Part shown: positions 1,815 through 27,815 of the stretch, piece by piece
Layout of the letters: every line of letters starts with the position of its first letter
Position numbering within the stretch: the first letter of the stretch is position 1
DNA from: a virus
DNA: 30,381 nt
Virus record (IMG/VR): IMGVR_UViG_3300046542_000607
Coordinates: 1 to 30,381 of that record
Strand: one strand, 5' to 3'
Notes under the pieces: generated by a model
The model's database searches: none
Told to the model about the DNA's origin: nothing
Seen by the model: the letters and a program-made list of their open reading frames with translations, nothing else
Program-made: the position numbers and the translations under genes

Positions 1815-3089
1815 ATGCTCGTGCAGTTCAGTGTCGAAAACTATCGATCGGTCAAGGATGTCTGCGAGCTAAGCATGGTTGCGTCTCGGTATTACAAAGA
1901 AAACGAAGAAGAAAATACATTTGAGACAGGTATTGCAGATTGCCCGCGCTTACTCAAATCAGTAGTGATTTACGGCCCAAACGGATCTGGTAAAAGCACT
2001 CTCCTCGAAGCTATGAAGTTCGTGGAAACTTTTGTATTGAAATCCGCGCCCAAGTCTCAAGCAGGCGAGGAAATCAATGTAACGCCTTTTCGCCTATCTA
2101 AAGACACCAGGAACAAACCATCAAACTTTGAAATAATCTTTATTGAAGATAACGTCCGTTATGAGTACGGCTTATGCACCACGCGAGAACGCGTTATGGA
2201 AGAGTGGTTGATTGCCTTCCCTAACGGAGTATCTCAAAAATGGTTCCATAGGGTTTACGACGCGGACACCGAAACCTATGCATATAAGTACTCGAAATAC
2301 TTTGAGGGTGGACGGCTGCGCGGCATTTGGCAAAAACAAACCCGCCAGAATGCGTCATATTTATCTACTGCAATCCAGCTAAATAATGAGCAGCTTACTC
2401 CTGTATACAATTGGTTTTTCCGTAGATTGGCCACACTTCGCCCTGATGGTCTTTCATCGGAGTTCACAGCAGAATACTGCCTTGATAGCGACTTCAAAAA
2501 AAGCGTTATTGAGTTTATCAGCAGTGCCGACATCCCCTTAACAAACATTGAAGTCGAAACATTGAAGTACTTGGATATGAAGTTTCCAGAGCATATCCCA
2601 ACGGCCTTCAGAGAAGAAATCACAAAATCACTAAAAGACAAAGAGTATCACGAAGTCAGCTTCGTAAGAACAGACGACGCTGGCGAGAGTGTTAGATTCA
2701 AACTATCTGAAGAATCACAGGGCACTCAGGGACTATTTAATTTTGCGGGCCCATGGATAGATGTGATTGCAAACGACTTAGTATTGTTCGTTGACGAACT
2801 GGATAGCAGTCTGCACCCTTTGATTGTTCACCATCTTGTTGACATCTTGCATAAGTCTGGCTCAAACGCACAAATCATTTTCACAACACATGACACGACG
2901 ATTCTTTCTCAAAAAATCCTTCGTCGGGACCAAGTGTGGCTTCTTAAAAAGAACAAACTTCACGCCTCGGAGCTTTACCCATTATCTGATTACAAAATCC
3001 GCGATGGCGAGGCAATTGAAAAAGGCTACCTTTCGGGTCGCTATGGCGCAGTTCCGTTCATCAAGGATATGAGCTTCAATGGGATCTGA
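1815..3089 (+). CDS. RloA/AbiLi-like AAA ATPase, defence pair component
   Basis: This is a 424-aa AAA15/AAA21-type ATPase. The Walker A motif is GPNGSGKS at about residues 54-61. The Walker B region (LFVDELDSSLHP) is near residues 322-333 and the H-loop (FTTHD) near 356-360. A strong RBS (AAGGAAAG) precedes the ATG. It overlaps the RloB-like gene by 11 bp, so the two are translationally coupled. Such ATPases pair with TOPRIM-like effectors in abortive-infection loci (RloA/RloB, lactococcal AbiL). The usual view is that the ATPase senses infection and releases the effector. Its AT-rich codons contrast with the phage core, marking it as acquired cargo. The family call is firm; an anti-phage role here is inferred. 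Confidence 0.85.
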   Translation: MLVQFSVENYRSVKDVCELSMVASRYYKENEEENTFETGIADCPRLLKSVVIYGPNGSGKSTLLEAMKFVETFVLKSAPKSQAGEEINVTPFRLSKDTRNKPSNFEIIFIEDNVRYEYGLCTTRERVMEEWLIAFPNGVSQKWFHRVYDADTETYAYKYSKYFEGGRLRGIWQKQTRQNASYLSTAIQLNNEQLTPVYNWFFRRLATLRPDGLSSEFTAEYCLDSDFKKSVIEFISSADIPLTNIEVETLKYLDMKFPEHIPTAFREEITKSLKDKEYHEVSFVRTDDAGESVRFKLSEESQGTQGLFNFAGPWIDVIANDLVLFVDELDSSLHPLIVHHLVDILHKSGSNAQIIFTTHDTTILSQKILRRDQVWLLKKNKLHASELYPLSDYKIRDGEAIEKGYLSGRYGAVPFIKDMSFNGI

Positions 3090-3750
3090 AAACTTGTTTC
3101 ATCTGAGAAAAGGAAAAACAACGAGATCTCTATCAAGGAGGGGGCCAATGAAAGACTCCGCCCCTATTTACTTGATTGTCTGCGAAGGAAAAAAAACCGA
3201 GCCTGAATATTTTAACGACTTGCGAAATCACGAACGACTTGCGAGCATAACAGTAAAAGTATGCGGTGAATGTGGATCTGCGCCGATCTCCGTTGTAGAA
3301 CATGCTATACAGCTCTATAAGGATATGACAAAAGAGGGAGAAACAGTCGAGGGAATTTTCTGTGTTTTCGACAAAGACAACCACGAAAGCTTCTTTCGAG
3401 CCTGCGCCCTAATCGAAAAATCAAAAAAAGAGAATATGCCTATCACCGCGGTGTTTTCAATACCGTGCTTTGAATACTGGTTGTTACTTCACTTCCAGTA
3501 CAACCGAGCACCATTCCAAGGTAAAGGTAATGCTAGTATTGCCGGAGTAGTCTGCAAGCAAGTGCAGGCTCATATTAAGGGATATACCAAAGGTGCTAAA
3601 GGATTATACGCAAAGTTAAAATGTAAACAGGCGGATGCCATTTCACACTCTCAGCGTGCTATTGAGGACGTTGATGCTACGGGTCAAGACAATCCTTCGA
3701 CTTATGTTCATACACTTGTCGAACAGCTTCTGAAGTACTCTGACGCGTAG
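3079..3750 (+). CDS. RloB/AbiLii-like protein, probable TOPRIM-type effector
   Basis: This 223-aa protein begins with MGSENLFHLRK, matching the usual basic N-terminus of RloB proteins, which supports the start at 3079 rather than the internal ATG at 3148. Family motifs are VCEGKKTEPEYF (about residues 34-45, acidic TOPRIM-like site), FDKD (about 97-100) and PCFEYWLLLHF (about 134-144). It lies directly after the ATPase with an 11-bp overlap and is the likely toxic or nucleolytic partner. No transporter or modification genes accompany it, so this is a two-gene system. Substrate and trigger cannot be read from sequence. Confidence 0.83.
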   Translation: MGSENLFHLRKGKTTRSLSRRGPMKDSAPIYLIVCEGKKTEPEYFNDLRNHERLASITVKVCGECGSAPISVVEHAIQLYKDMTKEGETVEGIFCVFDKDNHESFFRACALIEKSKKENMPITAVFSIPCFEYWLLLHFQYNRAPFQGKGNASIAGVVCKQVQAHIKGYTKGAKGLYAKLKCKQADAISHSQRAIEDVDATGQDNPSTYVHTLVEQLLKYSDA

Positions 3751-4301
3751 ACAGATTTGTCTTCCCCCCAGGGCCGCCAATTTGTTGTCAGATCTTTGGC
3801 CGTACGCAAAACAATGCAAAGGACGCCATGCGTTCCAGCAATCCACAGAGCATGCATGCCCAACCTTTTCACGCGTTCACGTCGCTGTCTTCCGAGTCGA
3901 TTCAAATCGACCACTGGTAGGTGATGAAAACGAAATTATTGCCAAATTTTCGTTTTTTTCACCTCCAGCCCCCAAAATGCTTAGCCTCCTCTCCTCTCCA
4001 ACTGCTGCGTCGAGTCCTGCAGACATTGAAATCTTCTTACAAAGCTTTTCAATTCCTTTCACTGTTGGAAACGTTGCATCTATCCATGCAGCCCGCAACT
4101 TGCGAGCCTCCACATCGCGTTTACAATCCGATCGCCTTTGCATAAAAGAACCACGTGTAGCCCGTCGGCGGGAGGGGGATAAGTGCTTTTTCAACTGCTT
4201 TTTTATGAGCAGTGGGATTTTCAATAGCCAACCGGCCGACCTTCGCGGTGACGCCAATGCCGTCAGTCGCCGAGTAGATGTAGCCCCATTCGCCTGACGA
4301 T
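3751..4301. other. Gene-poor spacer between defence pair and SOS cassette
   Basis: No ORF here has a start with an RBS and a convincing product. On the minus strand, a reading frame at 3877-4143 (88 codons from an ATG without RBS) and another at 4121-4324 (no start codon) look partly protein-like and could be relics of lost genes. A weak hairpin AGACA/TGTCT at 3749-3762 straddles the end of the rloB-like gene. Confidence 0.45.
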
Positions 4302-4324
4302 ATACTGTCTGCATATACAGTATT
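4121..4324 (-). pseudogene. Possible remnant of a leftward gene
   Basis: The frame is open for 68 codons and reads as ordinary protein with GC-ending codons, for example SSGEWGYIYSATDGIG and LIPLPPTGYTWFFYAK, ending in TAA at 4121-4123. It has no ATG, GTG or usable TTG near its 5' end, and its upstream end runs into the LexA box. A neighbouring frame has an ATG inside the box but gives Arg/Ser-rich, shadow-like sequence. It may be a 5'-truncated gene. No family recognised. Confidence 0.25.
4302..4323. promoter_or_regulatory. LexA (SOS) box
   Basis: The site has 7-bp perfect dyad arms ATACTGT and ACAGTAT with an 8-base centre, giving the gamma-proteobacterial LexA pattern CTG-N10-CAG flanked by TA. 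It ends 22 bases before the ATG of the downstream cassette, where bound LexA would block transcription. TATACT (4301-4306) and TATACA (4314-4319) within it could serve as a -10. Confidence 0.85.
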
Positions 4325-4345
4325 TCAACAGGGTACGTGTGTCCG

Positions 4346-4597
4346 ATGAATAGAGAATCTGCGGCAGCTTTGACTCCGGTTTCGTCCGGGGTTGCGCAAT
4401 GGCAGGTCATGCTGCGCGATGAGGAGGCGTTGCTCGCAATGCCCGGTGCCCATCACAAAGCGTTGCTCAGGCAAGCCCGTGCACTGCACCAGGACCATAT
4501 GATCGATGCTGACGAATTAGGCGACTTTCTAGAGTTAGCGGACGCGGCGCTAGCCTACGCAGTCGAATCGCTACTTGACCTCGACGCTGACGAGTAG
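4346..4597 (+). CDS. LexA-controlled small acidic protein, first gene of SOS cassette
   Basis: This is an 83-aa protein, or 86 aa if translation starts at the GTG at 4337. AGGG at 4330-4333 lies 12 bases before the ATG and only 3 before the GTG, so the start is not settled. The protein is helical and acidic, with a segment QWQVMLRDEEALLAMPG and a C-terminus ending LLDLDADE. There is no TM segment and no recognised domain. It is the first gene behind a LexA box and is followed after 8 bases by the gene at 4606. An SOS-induced phage function such as an antirepressor is a reasonable guess, not shown. Confidence 0.75.
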   Translation: MNRESAAALTPVSSGVAQWQVMLRDEEALLAMPGAHHKALLRQARALHQDHMIDADELGDFLELADAALAYAVESLLDLDADE

Positions 4598-4605
4598 GGG
4601 GCACC

Positions 4606-4902
4606 ATGCACGTATTGGTCACCCCTATGCGCGAACGTGGTGTCGCGCTAGATCCGAAGGAGCGGCGACGTTACCCAGCGATCCGGGGTAACGTCATGGT
4701 CAACTCAACTAACTGCCATGAATTAGGTCGCGCAGCCAACGTTGCCCGCGTTGAGGTGGGAATGCCACTCGACCCAGATCCGTTACCGCCTTTACTCGAT
4801 GCCACGCTGGCGGGAATGGCGGTAACAGGCTTCGTGCTAAGCGGCATTGAATACGTCGACGGCTGCGCTTTTGCGCAGTCGTGGTGGTGTCGACTTGAGT
4901 AG
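4606..4902 (+). CDS. Second gene of SOS cassette, unknown function
   Basis: This is a 98-aa protein with a good RBS (AGGGGG, 4596-4601) overlapping the stop of the preceding gene, so the two form one transcription unit under the LexA box. It has a basic patch DPKERRRYPAIRG at about residues 16-28 and a Pro-rich middle (DPDPLPPLLD). The C-terminus is unusual, with Cys, Trp-Trp and a final RLE. I do not recognise a family. Codon use resembles the phage core more than the AT-rich cargo on either side. Confidence 0.7.
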   Translation: MHVLVTPMRERGVALDPKERRRYPAIRGNVMVNSTNCHELGRAANVARVEVGMPLDPDPLPPLLDATLAGMAVTGFVLSGIEYVDGCAFAQSWWCRLE

Positions 4903-4973
4903 TAGGTTTATACCTATCGTTATGTGATATAGAGCAGAGAGGAAATATACAAAGAAGCCAACACCAGGTGCAG

Positions 4974-6221
4974 ATGATGGATCAAAACAACGACAAAAAA
5001 TGTATCTACTGCACTCGCAGTGGTCCGTTCTCTGACGAACATGTATTCCCCGCAGGAATGGGCGGCGATGACAAAGACTTTTTATTAGAGGACTTGGTTT
5101 GCGCCGACTGCAATACAACAATTTTCTCTCCTTTGGAACTATCTCTGATGAGGCGCTCGCCGACAGGGTTAGGGCGGAAATTTCTTCAAAGCAAGACAAG
5201 AGAGAAGGGAAAGAGAACTACGAAACCTACAATCGAAACTAAAGGCCACTTTATAATTGATGAGTCTGGCGAGTACCTAGAGGCGGAGTATGACAAGGAA
5301 GGCAATGATATTGTACTTGCGCAATGTATATTCAAGGGTGACTCGATTAACTATGCGGCGCATGATCGAGACAATCTGAAGAAACTATATTCGGAGCTTT
5401 CCAAGCATCTGAATTCTTCAACCGTCGATCTTATTATAAAGAAAAGAGAGTTGACGGTAAGTTACGAAGTAACTACTTATGAGTGGGGGAAGGATGAGTA
5501 TGTACTTTCATCGATCGTGGAGCTGCCTAAAGCTCCGAAATTAGGGATTTGGCTGGAGGCAATGAGTAGTGCTCAGGCCTCTATATCGCCGCGATTTTAC
5601 CAAAGACCCAAGGGTCAGCTGGTTCTGAAGATCGGTCCGCAATCGAAGCCAGCAGAACTATTAAGAAGCATGCGAAGGACACTTCCTTCCATGCTAGCTA
5701 AGCAAGGGGAAGCGGCTGAAAACTCTATAAATCAGCCGGTCATCCATATTGAAATGCCCATAGATATGCATAGCACTGAAAGGGCAATTGCTAAAATAGG
5801 AGTAAATTTTCTAGCACACACTTTTGGACCTGAATTTGTTCGTCGCTCAGAGTTTGACAGGGTCAAGCAGTCTATACGGACGGGGCGCCCTGAGTTGCTT
5901 TTTTCTGCTTTTGGCCCAGAGGATGAAGACACAACAGTAGAATTATTTGGGTCGCCTCCTGCGCAGTGTCATTGCTTAATGCTAATAGGTGTGCCGTCAG
6001 ATAATGGATTTTGCGAGGTGTATTTTAATGCAAAATTGTATGGGTCTGGAGCATATCAAGTTACTCTGGCGCAAAGTCTCCCGCTCACTGATTTGTTTCA
6101 TCCGTTTTATTTCTTGGTTTACTATGAAGAAAACCGAATTGAAAAACTGTCGATGCTTGAATATCAATTAAGATACGGCGTATTGGTCCAGCGTTTTCTA
6201 GAGAGTGAAAACAATCAGTAG
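4974..6221 (+). CDS. HNH-type zinc-binding protein, probable nuclease cargo
   Basis: This protein is about 415 aa. Near the N-terminus it carries C-x2-C (CIYC), SDEHVFPAGMGG and then C-x2-CN (CADCN), the zinc-knuckle and histidine arrangement of HNH endonucleases. The remaining ~350 residues match nothing I know. AGGTG at 4966-4970 can serve ATG 4974 or 4977; the GTG at 4968 is less likely. The gene is AT-rich compared with the tail genes and points toward them, ending 25 bp from the convergent spike gene. That is a typical site for acquired cargo. The role could be defence, toxin or homing; the sequence does not decide. Confidence 0.7.
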   Translation: MMDQNNDKKCIYCTRSGPFSDEHVFPAGMGGDDKDFLLEDLVCADCNTTIFSPLELSLMRRSPTGLGRKFLQSKTREKGKRTTKPTIETKGHFIIDESGEYLEAEYDKEGNDIVLAQCIFKGDSINYAAHDRDNLKKLYSELSKHLNSSTVDLIIKKRELTVSYEVTTYEWGKDEYVLSSIVELPKAPKLGIWLEAMSSAQASISPRFYQRPKGQLVLKIGPQSKPAELLRSMRRTLPSMLAKQGEAAENSINQPVIHIEMPIDMHSTERAIAKIGVNFLAHTFGPEFVRRSEFDRVKQSIRTGRPELLFSAFGPEDEDTTVELFGSPPAQCHCLMLIGVPSDNGFCEVYFNAKLYGSGAYQVTLAQSLPLTDLFHPFYFLVYYEENRIEKLSMLEYQLRYGVLVQRFLESENNQ

Positions 6222-6227
6222 TGGGTG

Positions 6228-6269
6228 AGTTGAAGGCGATTACTTTTTAAAATGTAATCGCCTTCAACT
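6228..6269. repeat. Perfect 16-bp inverted repeat between convergent genes
   Basis: Arms AGTTGAAGGCGATTAC (6228-6243) and its exact complement (6254-6269) flank an A/T loop of 10 bases. The right arm encodes the last residues of the spike gene (LKAIT). The left arm is noncoding DNA after the HNH gene. No T run follows either arm, so it is not a classical terminator, although a hairpin between convergent genes could still stop or stabilise transcripts. Confidence 0.8.
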
Positions 6270-7224
6270 TCAAGCCCATACTAGTCGCCTGCGCAGCCTT
6301 GGCGGTAAATGCCTGTGAGTCAGCAGGGCTGGGCGACGGACCCGGTGAATGCGTGTGCGCAGCCAGTTGCGTGTTCATCTGCTCCATTAGCGCCAATACA
6401 TCGCAAACGACTTGAAAAAGATTCACACTTTCAGAGCCGATCCAGTTTTTCGGCGCTTGCAGATGCTGCCCTTTACCCGCCACGCTTCGGCGCAAGCCTT
6501 CAATCCGCTCCTGCATGTCGCCACCCACGGTCACGTTGTGTTTCTGCCCCACCACGACATTCAAATCGCGCCCGGTCGCCTGGTGCAGATCGTCCAAAGC
6601 CGCCAGGCTCGCGCATCCACCCGACATCAGCTTGAGTGCGCCCAACGCCTCGATCTTTTTCACTCCCCCCACCGTCTCTGTCGAGTGGTCATCGATCGTC
6701 TGCGTATGGCTCTGGAACTGCTCGCGGTTGCCCAGGGCCTGAACCTCGCGTTCGATCGCTTCGTCGCGGATCTTGCCGTCGGTGCTCCTGGTCCAGTTGC
6801 CATCCGCATCGACTCGCTGTTGCACCGCGTCACTGTGCTGCCACACCTGGTCGCCCTTTGGCACCTTGGGCAGGCTCAGGCCGTGGGGCAGGACCGTCTG
6901 GATGTAGGGACTGCTGGGCAGTCCGTAGGCAAAGCACACCACGACGCGGGTGCCCTCTTCCGGAAACCCGTACATGCCCATTTCTTCGCCGCCGTTGGCC
7001 AGCGGCAGTGGTACACCCGACAGGATCGGCATGTCCGGATCCGCCTCGCCATCCGGGGTCAGAACTTCGATATCGACCGCGTAGCGCGGACGGAAGTCAT
7101 CGCATAGCCCGGCCCCGGCCGGCGCGTCGGCCACCCCCACAACGCGGGCAAAGCGCGGCAGGTGGTAGCCGCCTGTCAATTCGGGAAATTGGCGCTCTAC
7201 GCTGCGCTTTATTGAGTCGTCCAT
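6247..7224 (-). CDS. Phage baseplate spike protein (gpV/VgrG-like)
   Basis: This is a 325-aa protein with the layout of P2-type baseplate spikes: an N-terminal OB-like domain (PRFARVVGV, EMGMYGFPEEGTRVVVCF), a beta-helical middle with repeats (TQTIDDHSTETVGG, QKHNVTVGGDM), and a C-terminal segment with HTHSPGPSPSP. It would tip the tail tube and puncture the outer membrane. It overlaps the hub gene by 16 bp and is the last gene of the late operon. The terminal codons lie in the 16-bp inverted repeat. Confidence 0.85.
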   Translation of the reverse strand: MDDSIKRSVERQFPELTGGYHLPRFARVVGVADAPAGAGLCDDFRPRYAVDIEVLTPDGEADPDMPILSGVPLPLANGGEEMGMYGFPEEGTRVVVCFAYGLPSSPYIQTVLPHGLSLPKVPKGDQVWQHSDAVQQRVDADGNWTRSTDGKIRDEAIEREVQALGNREQFQSHTQTIDDHSTETVGGVKKIEALGALKLMSGGCASLAALDDLHQATGRDLNVVVGQKHNVTVGGDMQERIEGLRRSVAGKGQHLQAPKNWIGSESVNLFQVVCDVLALMEQMNTQLAAHTHSPGPSPSPADSQAFTAKAAQATSMGLKLKAITF

Positions 7225-7907: not shown

Positions 7908-8458
7908 GCGGAGTCGCCCAGGTAGGTGTCCACTTTTTTCAGCACAGCCTCAAAACCGGTCAGTTCTTGGGGCGCGCTACCAGATCCTCCGGAACCACCG
8001 GTGCCGCCGGAGCCATTGACCCCATCGCCCGGGGCAGACTGAGACGTGACCGCGTTGCCGGTGCGGCGGTTCTCGACCTTTTCCGGGTTGGAGAGCTTTT
8101 CGCTCAAGGTGAACTGGATGATCCACTGCGCCAGGCTGTCATCCTCCCGGGCGCTAACGCCATCGGCGAAGGTCACCTGGCGGATGCCGAAAGCCTCGGC
8201 CGTGTCGTTGACGATCCGATACGTGGTCAGTTGCCCGCCCTTTTCGGTCCCTTCCGCCAGGCGCATCAGGGTGCGCAGGTCTGCTTTCTCCCGGTAGGGA
8301 ATGGTCAAGGCTACCGTCAGGGTCTTGGGCTTGAAGCCCTTGTGCGACTTCTCGGTACCGGACGTTTGCCCGCCCATGTCGTCAGCCTCGATCCGCAGAT
8401 TTGCCGTGACCTTCATCCGGTTACCCAGGATCTGCTGGCCGTTGAGTAACATCGTCAT
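7904..8458 (-). CDS. Baseplate-associated protein with Gly/Ser linker
   Basis: This 184-aa protein begins at ATG 8458, which forms an ATGA overlap with the upstream stop. The longer frame up to 8533 lies wholly inside the neighbouring gene and is unlikely. Residues 1-125 are a beta-rich domain (NGQQILGNRMKVTANLRIEA). A low-complexity linker (GSGGTGGSGGSGS) and a short helical tail follow. Its place between the unknown 308-aa protein and the hub indicates a baseplate or tail-tip role. Similar HP1-like proteins are named baseplate complex proteins. Confidence 0.7.
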   Translation of the reverse strand: MTMLLNGQQILGNRMKVTANLRIEADDMGGQTSGTEKSHKGFKPKTLTVALTIPYREKADLRTLMRLAEGTEKGGQLTTYRIVNDTAEAFGIRQVTFADGVSAREDDSLAQWIIQFTLSEKLSNPEKVENRRTGNAVTSQSAPGDGVNGSGGTGGSGGSGSAPQELTGFEAVLKKVDTYLGDSA

Positions 8459-27420: not shown

Positions 27421-27771
27421 TTAAGACCGGTGCCTGGCGACGTCGTCGGCCATCGCTTCAAGGATGCGGCGAATAGCCTTTTGGTCATCCTCTGGAATGC
27501 TTCGGAACTGGTTTACCAGACAGTCTTCGACTTCCGTCAGTGCTTCATTCGCCAACGTCTTTCGCGATCCGTGAACGATATACGCAACGTCAAAATCGAG
27601 CAGAGAGTTAGCAAGGCTCAGGTAGGACGCAGGCGCATCACTCGCACCCGATTCGTAGTTGCCTTGGGTACGTTTAGACACGCCAAGTTTTTCAGCCAGT
27701 TGATCTTGAGTCAGGCCAGCACCGGCGCGAAGTTCCCGCAGCCTGGCGCCGATCTCTTCAGAAAGAGTCAA
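27421..27771 (-). CDS. XRE-family phage repressor (CI-like)
   Basis: This 116-aa protein is read from TTG 27771 (MTLSEEIGARLREL), with GTGGA 6 bases upstream. A GTG at 27813 would add 14 Cys-rich residues and cross the operator region. HTH_3 spans about residues 5-60 (LTQDQLAEKLGVSKRTQGNYESG shortened to LTQDQLAEKLGVSKRTQ). The C-terminus is a short helical segment with no LexA/S24 peptidase domain, so RecA-driven self-cleavage is unlikely. It faces the Cro-like gene across about 84 bp of operator DNA. Confidence 0.87.
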   Translation of the reverse strand: MTLSEEIGARLRELRAGAGLTQDQLAEKLGVSKRTQGNYESGASDAPASYLSLANSLLDFDVAYIVHGSRKTLANEALTEVEDCLVNQFRSIPEDDQKAIRRILEAMADDVARHRS

Positions 27772-27789
27772 TATTTTTCCACTCGCATA

Positions 27790-27815
27790 TTTACATTGGC
27801 AGTTTTTTGCCACAT
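27790..27815. promoter_or_regulatory. Candidate operator between repressor and Cro-like genes
   Basis: The region holds TGGCA and TGCCA around a 6-base T-rich centre, with ACATT/AATGT-like flanks, in the 84-bp divergent gap. This is where the repressor and the Cro-like protein should compete. The promoters themselves are not clear by eye. Confidence 0.4.

Follow-up and report, generated by a model that had tools for sequence, protein, structure and literature searches.

The window analysed here, meaning the whole stretch of DNA under study, is a 30,381-bp IMG/VR virus record (IMGVR_UViG_3300046542_000607, positions 1–30,381). Its genes for terminase, portal, scaffold, capsid, tail sheath, tail fibre and baseplate are those of a P2/HP1-like prophage, which is of Pseudomonas type. 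In a cargo region that adjoins its tail genes, this prophage keeps two small plus-strand genes, A and B, which lie 8 bp apart on the 3′ side of a LexA (SOS) box, TACTGTCTGCATATACAGTA (Table 1). As most A homologues begin at the second start, A probably initiates at ATG 4346 and not at GTG 4337.

Table 1. Coordinates of the LexA-box cassette and of other features discussed, numbered from the first letter of the window.
Feature	Position	Strand	Remarks
LexA (SOS) box TACTGTCTGCATATACAGTA	4303–4322	.	20 bp; core CTGTN8ACAG at 4305–4320; consensus match and conservation
Gene A	4337–4597	+	86-aa ORF; 83 aa from the likelier ATG 4346; phrog_6137
Gene B	4606–4902	+	98 aa; phrog_5560
HNH_5-like gene	4968–6221	+	417 aa; PF14279 E = 1e-4, below cut-off; phrog_35254
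Baseplate gene	6247–7224	-	phrog_4011; late gene, convergent
Short HTH repressor, outside the cassette	27421–27813	-	HTH_31 E = 1e-10; no S24 peptidase match

The gene that follows B begins 65 bp downstream on the same strand and encodes a product with HNH_5-like similarity at its N-terminus. It is probably variable cargo and may be co-transcribed with A and B; scans of positions 4150–5050 for sigma-70 promoters and terminators returned no matches, including no terminator-like site between B and this gene. The first-pass annotation placed the cassette at the end of the tail operon, and the adjacent late gene is indeed one for a baseplate protein, with the amendment that the HNH_5-like gene intervenes between it and B. 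The cassette is also adjoined by an AAA_21 ATPase and RloB pair (1815–3750, plus strand) resembling the AbiL defence pair, with best PADLOC matches to AbiLi (E = 2.6e-91) and AbiLii (E = 4e-28). The stretch between B and the tail gene varies among related P2-like prophages (A–B loci L115–L157), so the cassette seems to be the anchor of a hotspot for cargo genes alongside the tail genes.

The box is the sole CTGTN8ACAG in the window. It differs from the searched consensus, TACTGTATATATATACAGTA, at three positions and is the only match in the window at three or fewer mismatches, none being expected by chance. Relatives of B were collected by scanning IMG/VR and the GTDB genome collection, and extra regions came from a search of Pseudomonas-genus genomes. 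Of the 78 viral loci collected first, 64 had the strict box CTGTN8ACAG, nearly always about 300 bp upstream of B, and most of the others carried a CTGG variant; the background frequency of CTGTN8ACAG in the same DNA is approximately 0.0125 per 700 bp. Among 220 distinct B alleles, the strict box precedes the first cassette gene in 176, a CTG[TG]N8[AC]CAG variant does so in 24, the contig is truncated in three and no box was recognised in 17. Clustering at 85% protein identity gave the strict box in 67 of 88 clusters and the variant in 11. As the fetched loci are related to each other, these allele counts, and the partner counts given below, are partly inherited and do not represent independent events.

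Across 118 distinct upstream sequences the consensus is ATATACTGT-N8-ACAGT, flanked on both sides by near-random sequence as judged by information content. This fall to noise just beyond the box indicates that selection acts on the box itself. Conservation of a box at the promoter across homologues is the mark by which a LexA regulon member is recognised, and B, wherever it is intact, usually lies behind a LexA box. LexA control of the two-gene cassette is thus near certain from comparative sequence data, and the first-pass observation of a LexA box directly before two small genes is borne out by the uniqueness of the match, its retention in the 176 alleles and the selection on both ORFs.

That selection is seen in the median dN/dS to homologues, approximately 0.04 for B and 0.18 for A, by which both are judged to be real genes. 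A matches phrog_6137 (E = 3.3e-18) and B matches phrog_5560 (E = 1.8e-33), families to which PHROG attaches no function. None of the libraries searched gave a function for B, and A had no match in Pfam, NCBIfam or PADLOC. Comparison of 51 members of A and 53 of B with Pfam yielded no consistent family, the one MazE-like match (E = 0.013) occurring in a single A member. No description of either gene was found in the open-licence literature.

Both products are small, probably cytosolic proteins. From 53 sequences, B is predicted by AlphaFold to form a compact all-β domain (pLDDT 92), and A is predicted to form a helical bundle (pLDDT 81). Residues M1, G12, A47, M71, G80, A90, Q91, W93, W94 and C95 of B are invariant, the last five comprising an invariant C-terminal motif, AQ.WWC. 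Fold searches with B returned only weak matches resembling PH and Ran-binding domains (best E 0.06, TM approximately 0.5) and none among viral structures; those with A returned no match. Sequence searches of solved structures gave none for B and one chance-level match for A.

B-like sequences, some of them fragments, occur in 100 of the 399 Pseudomonas-genus genomes searched, that is, in a quarter, and in 0 of 14 control genomes; a few copies are found in Caballeronia, Paraburkholderia and Burkholderia. The module is carried by P2-like prophages and by siphophage-type phages, in which it lies near lysis genes. In phages pAN and PG1 it sits between the integrase and lysis genes, and in phage Medea1 it is near the integrase. 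In P. syringae and P. cerasi it is found on conjugative plasmids, next to parAB and with no phage genes around it. Some genomes have two or three copies of B (for example, G008), and in one case two copies lie within 4 kb (L155:4332–4625 and 8001–8294). Frameshifted or truncated copies (L144, L145, L156, L160, L171, L177 and L193) suggest decay in some prophages.

The LexA box stays before the first gene while the order of the cassette shuffles, the orders behind it being A–B, B–A, B–UmuD-like–A and UmuD-like–B. The A–B order is found in 128 alleles, with the box approximately 300 bp upstream of B, and the B–A order in 30, with the box at −28 to −40 from B. In 22 alleles, a SRAP gene is divergent across the box from B, which stands alone or is followed by A and/or a UmuD-like gene; on two plasmids (L258 and L259) the arrangement is SRAP, box, B, UmuD-like, A, with SRAP pointing away. 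Codirectional SRAP–B is found in four alleles, with no box recognised. Single loci have UmuD-like–B (L178, box at −381), A–UmuD-like–B (L272, box at −595) and ImuA–B (L149, box at −742).

Clustering of every ORF starting near B in the 92 loci where A is not first, without preselection of families, gave only A, SRAP and a UmuD-like S24 protein as recurrent immediate partners. The remaining clusters were frames antisense to a gene or were restricted to a few close relatives. The SRAP partner, of YedK/HMCES type, is confirmed by PF02586 (E = 1.6e-48), and the S24 partner matches PF00717 (E = 3.7e-22). The latter scores 97–98 bits against the NCBI UmuD subfamily, for which the cut-off is 110, and so is labelled UmuD-like only. 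ImuA was found beside B once, as the 237-aa gene of L149 (NF033429 equivalog, 221 bits against a cut-off of 150). UmuC, ImuB and DnaE2 were not identified beside B.

This linkage to SRAP, UmuD-like or ImuA genes behind one LexA box is seen in B relatives on phages and plasmids, but not in the window, where no SRAP, UmuD or ImuA gene adjoins A and B. Likewise, none of the 128 A–B-type alleles has a SRAP, UmuD-like or ImuA gene immediately upstream. In one P2-like phage (G411, the record of locus L042), a 150-aa S24 domain frame at 33679–34023 lies approximately 1.7 kb upstream of A–B and is possibly a UmuD-like gene near the cassette.

In single-stranded DNA, YedK/HMCES-type SRAP proteins form cross-links with abasic sites, and protein–DNA cross-linking is named in the annotation of the L259 record; UmuD and ImuA are translesion synthesis proteins. 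Because B shares the same LexA switch with these proteins in several arrangements, a role in damage tolerance is the best guess for its function. It is proposed, in a judgement evenly poised between acceptance and doubt, that A–B is an SOS-induced accessory module for DNA-damage tolerance carried on mobile elements. Host LexA would repress A and B; DNA damage would lead to LexA cleavage and synthesis of both proteins, which would then act in a damage-tolerance pathway of the host. B, with its small β domain and a C-terminal strand bearing the invariant WWC, would be the core component and A its helical partner, and they may act, as SRAP and UmuD do, at damaged DNA or on the translesion or abasic-site machinery. 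The benefit to carriers would be that DNA damage is survived, or replicated through, by both the element and its host.

Everything in this scheme past LexA control and gene association is what we infer, and adjacent genes under one promoter are expressed at the same time without necessarily belonging to one pathway. More tentative, and on balance rather doubtful, is the broader idea that A and B are the first members of a novel class of SOS effectors, in which a WWC-ended β protein and a helical partner handle damaged DNA together with SRAP and UmuD-type proteins, as an order-shuffled kit that is spread by phages and plasmids and upgrades the damage tolerance of the host.

The next best explanation after damage tolerance, although an unlikely one, is that A or B acts on RecA, on LexA cleavage or on the general SOS level, adjusting how long the SOS response lasts for whichever element carries it. 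PsiB, DinI and UmuD′ act at these points in other systems. Such a role fits the small size of the proteins, the UmuD-like partner, the indifference of the module to repressor type and its presence on plasmids as well as phages. Against it, neither A nor B has a DinI- or PsiB-type family match or a structural relative.

The first-pass annotation proposed that the cassette may induce the prophage. In phage 186, which is P2-like, the tum operon comprises two genes under LexA control and lies outside the immunity region, and Tum drives induction. By analogy, LexA cleavage would allow synthesis of a cassette product that releases the prophage, either as an antirepressor or as an inducer of another kind, a reading that the repressor types in part encourage. 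The window's repressor does lack a self-cleavage domain, as had been noted, having HTH matches and no S24 peptidase match; its ORF is listed as 130 aa and not the 116 aa given earlier. In 28 long P2-like records with A–B, 19 repressors resemble that of the window (41–95% identity), five have an HTH-only match and four have no match. Two of these last four encode 239-aa HTH-plus-S24 proteins, leaving 26 of 28 records with no S24-type repressor in a comparison set made up of A–B carriers only. The cassette may therefore still be a general aid to induction in the P2-like phages, whose repressors mostly lack an S24 domain.

Several observations speak against induction through the repressor. Besides the two P2-like phages with S24-type proteins, the CI of Medea1 carries a peptidase S24 annotation, the self-cleaving type, and the plasmid copies lie outside any phage context. 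Furthermore, similarity of A and B to those of the window does not track repressor similarity: in one record (L006) A is 87% and B 96% identical and the repressor is unrelated, whereas in another (L067) the repressor is 95% identical and A only 64%. The gene pair, which the first-pass annotation suggested seeking in other HP1-like prophages, is found in other P2-like prophages; among 13 records of at least 32 kb with the window's repressor type, some of which may be incomplete, B is present in six and missing from seven. All seven retain the tail gene beside which the cassette would sit, and in none was another convincing LexA-box cassette found. Matches to CTGTN8ACAG in two B-less phages (G441 and G438) were rejected as cassette boxes; they fall within a long ORF or at its end, before no obvious cassette, and so look like chance occurrences. 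Thus, the co-occurrence or co-variation with one repressor type expected of a Tum-type gene was not found. Comparison of A and B with Pfam, NCBIfam and PHROGs, extended with Pfam to 51 and 53 homologues, respectively, gave no known antirepressor or DinI-type domain, in agreement with the earlier view that neither protein resembles Tum.

A precedent besides Tum for LexA-controlled prophage genes that drive induction is PP_3901 of a P. putida KT2440 prophage, which prophage genes are reported to require for their induction by DNA damage, according to a passage in PMC4595014 that cites Abella et al. 2007. With the published primers PP_3901 was located at L340:3041–3301, and a LexA box of its own, CTGTCTATGCATACAG, lies immediately upstream (within L340:3006–3301). 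A distant relative of PP_3901 is present in L330, approximately 4.5 kb from a B-like copy. The candidate that A or B is a PP_3901 homologue was rejected, as hmmsearch --max of PP_3901 with the A and B profiles gave no signal; PP_3901 represents another kind of LexA-controlled prophage gene, unrelated to A and B. Together, the plasmid copies, the S24 repressors, the lack of co-variation, the B-less phages with the same repressor and the unrelatedness of PP_3901 argue against a repressor-specific antirepressor and do not support one as a general function. Of the two parts of the original proposal, LexA control stands firmly, and induction of the prophage by the cassette now appears improbable. 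As its relatives, often beside DNA-damage genes, occur widely in Pseudomonas phages and on some Pseudomonas plasmids, the cassette looks more like a travelling damage-response module than a device for waking this one prophage.

That A and B form an SOS-triggered inhibitor of growth or division, a lysis aid or a small toxin pair is very improbable. SOS-controlled small proteins such as the division inhibitor SulA do work in this way, and the module adjoins lysis or late genes in several phages. Nevertheless, no toxin, holin or division-inhibitor family was matched, and the module is kept on plasmids beside SRAP and UmuD-like genes. Either gene may come first and B often occurs without A, so the arrangement is not antitoxin-like; a family match and a fixed pair, by which toxin–antitoxin systems are recognised, are both lacking. 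Least probable of all is an anti-phage defence or counter-defence cargo under incidental SOS control, for although the cassette lies in a cargo region with the AbiL-like pair and the HNH-like gene adjacent, A and B have no PADLOC match and a constant LexA box with DNA-repair partners would be unusual for such cargo.

Should the module proposed here for damage tolerance change how lesions are tolerated or how fast mutations arise, some of the mutation supply of environmental pseudomonads would be carried by mobile elements. Given its small size, the gene pair lends itself to a direct test in a laboratory strain. More generally, SOS control of a prophage gene is not proof that the gene induces the prophage.

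Among known systems, the tum operon of phage 186 is similar in being a LexA-controlled two-gene unit in a P2-like phage; it differs in that A and B have no antirepressor or DinI match and belong to a repressor-independent module also found on plasmids. PP_3901 is likewise a small LexA-controlled Pseudomonas prophage gene with a box directly upstream, but is not homologous to A or B. SRAP neighbourhoods include UmuDC, ImuA–ImuB–DnaE2 and DinB operons, as outlined in parts of Aravind et al. 2013 (PMC3765255). The components named in those parts do not include A or B, and, unlike these neighbourhoods, B has no Y-family or DnaE2 polymerase identified beside it, with A–B standing alone in the window. 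The likeness to that account lies in LexA-controlled cassettes on phages, plasmids and chromosomes and in the partners of B, which in some of its relatives include SRAP, UmuD-like and ImuA proteins. For PHROG families 6137 (A) and 5560 (B), to which that resource assigns no function, LexA control and the partner genes are described in the present analysis.
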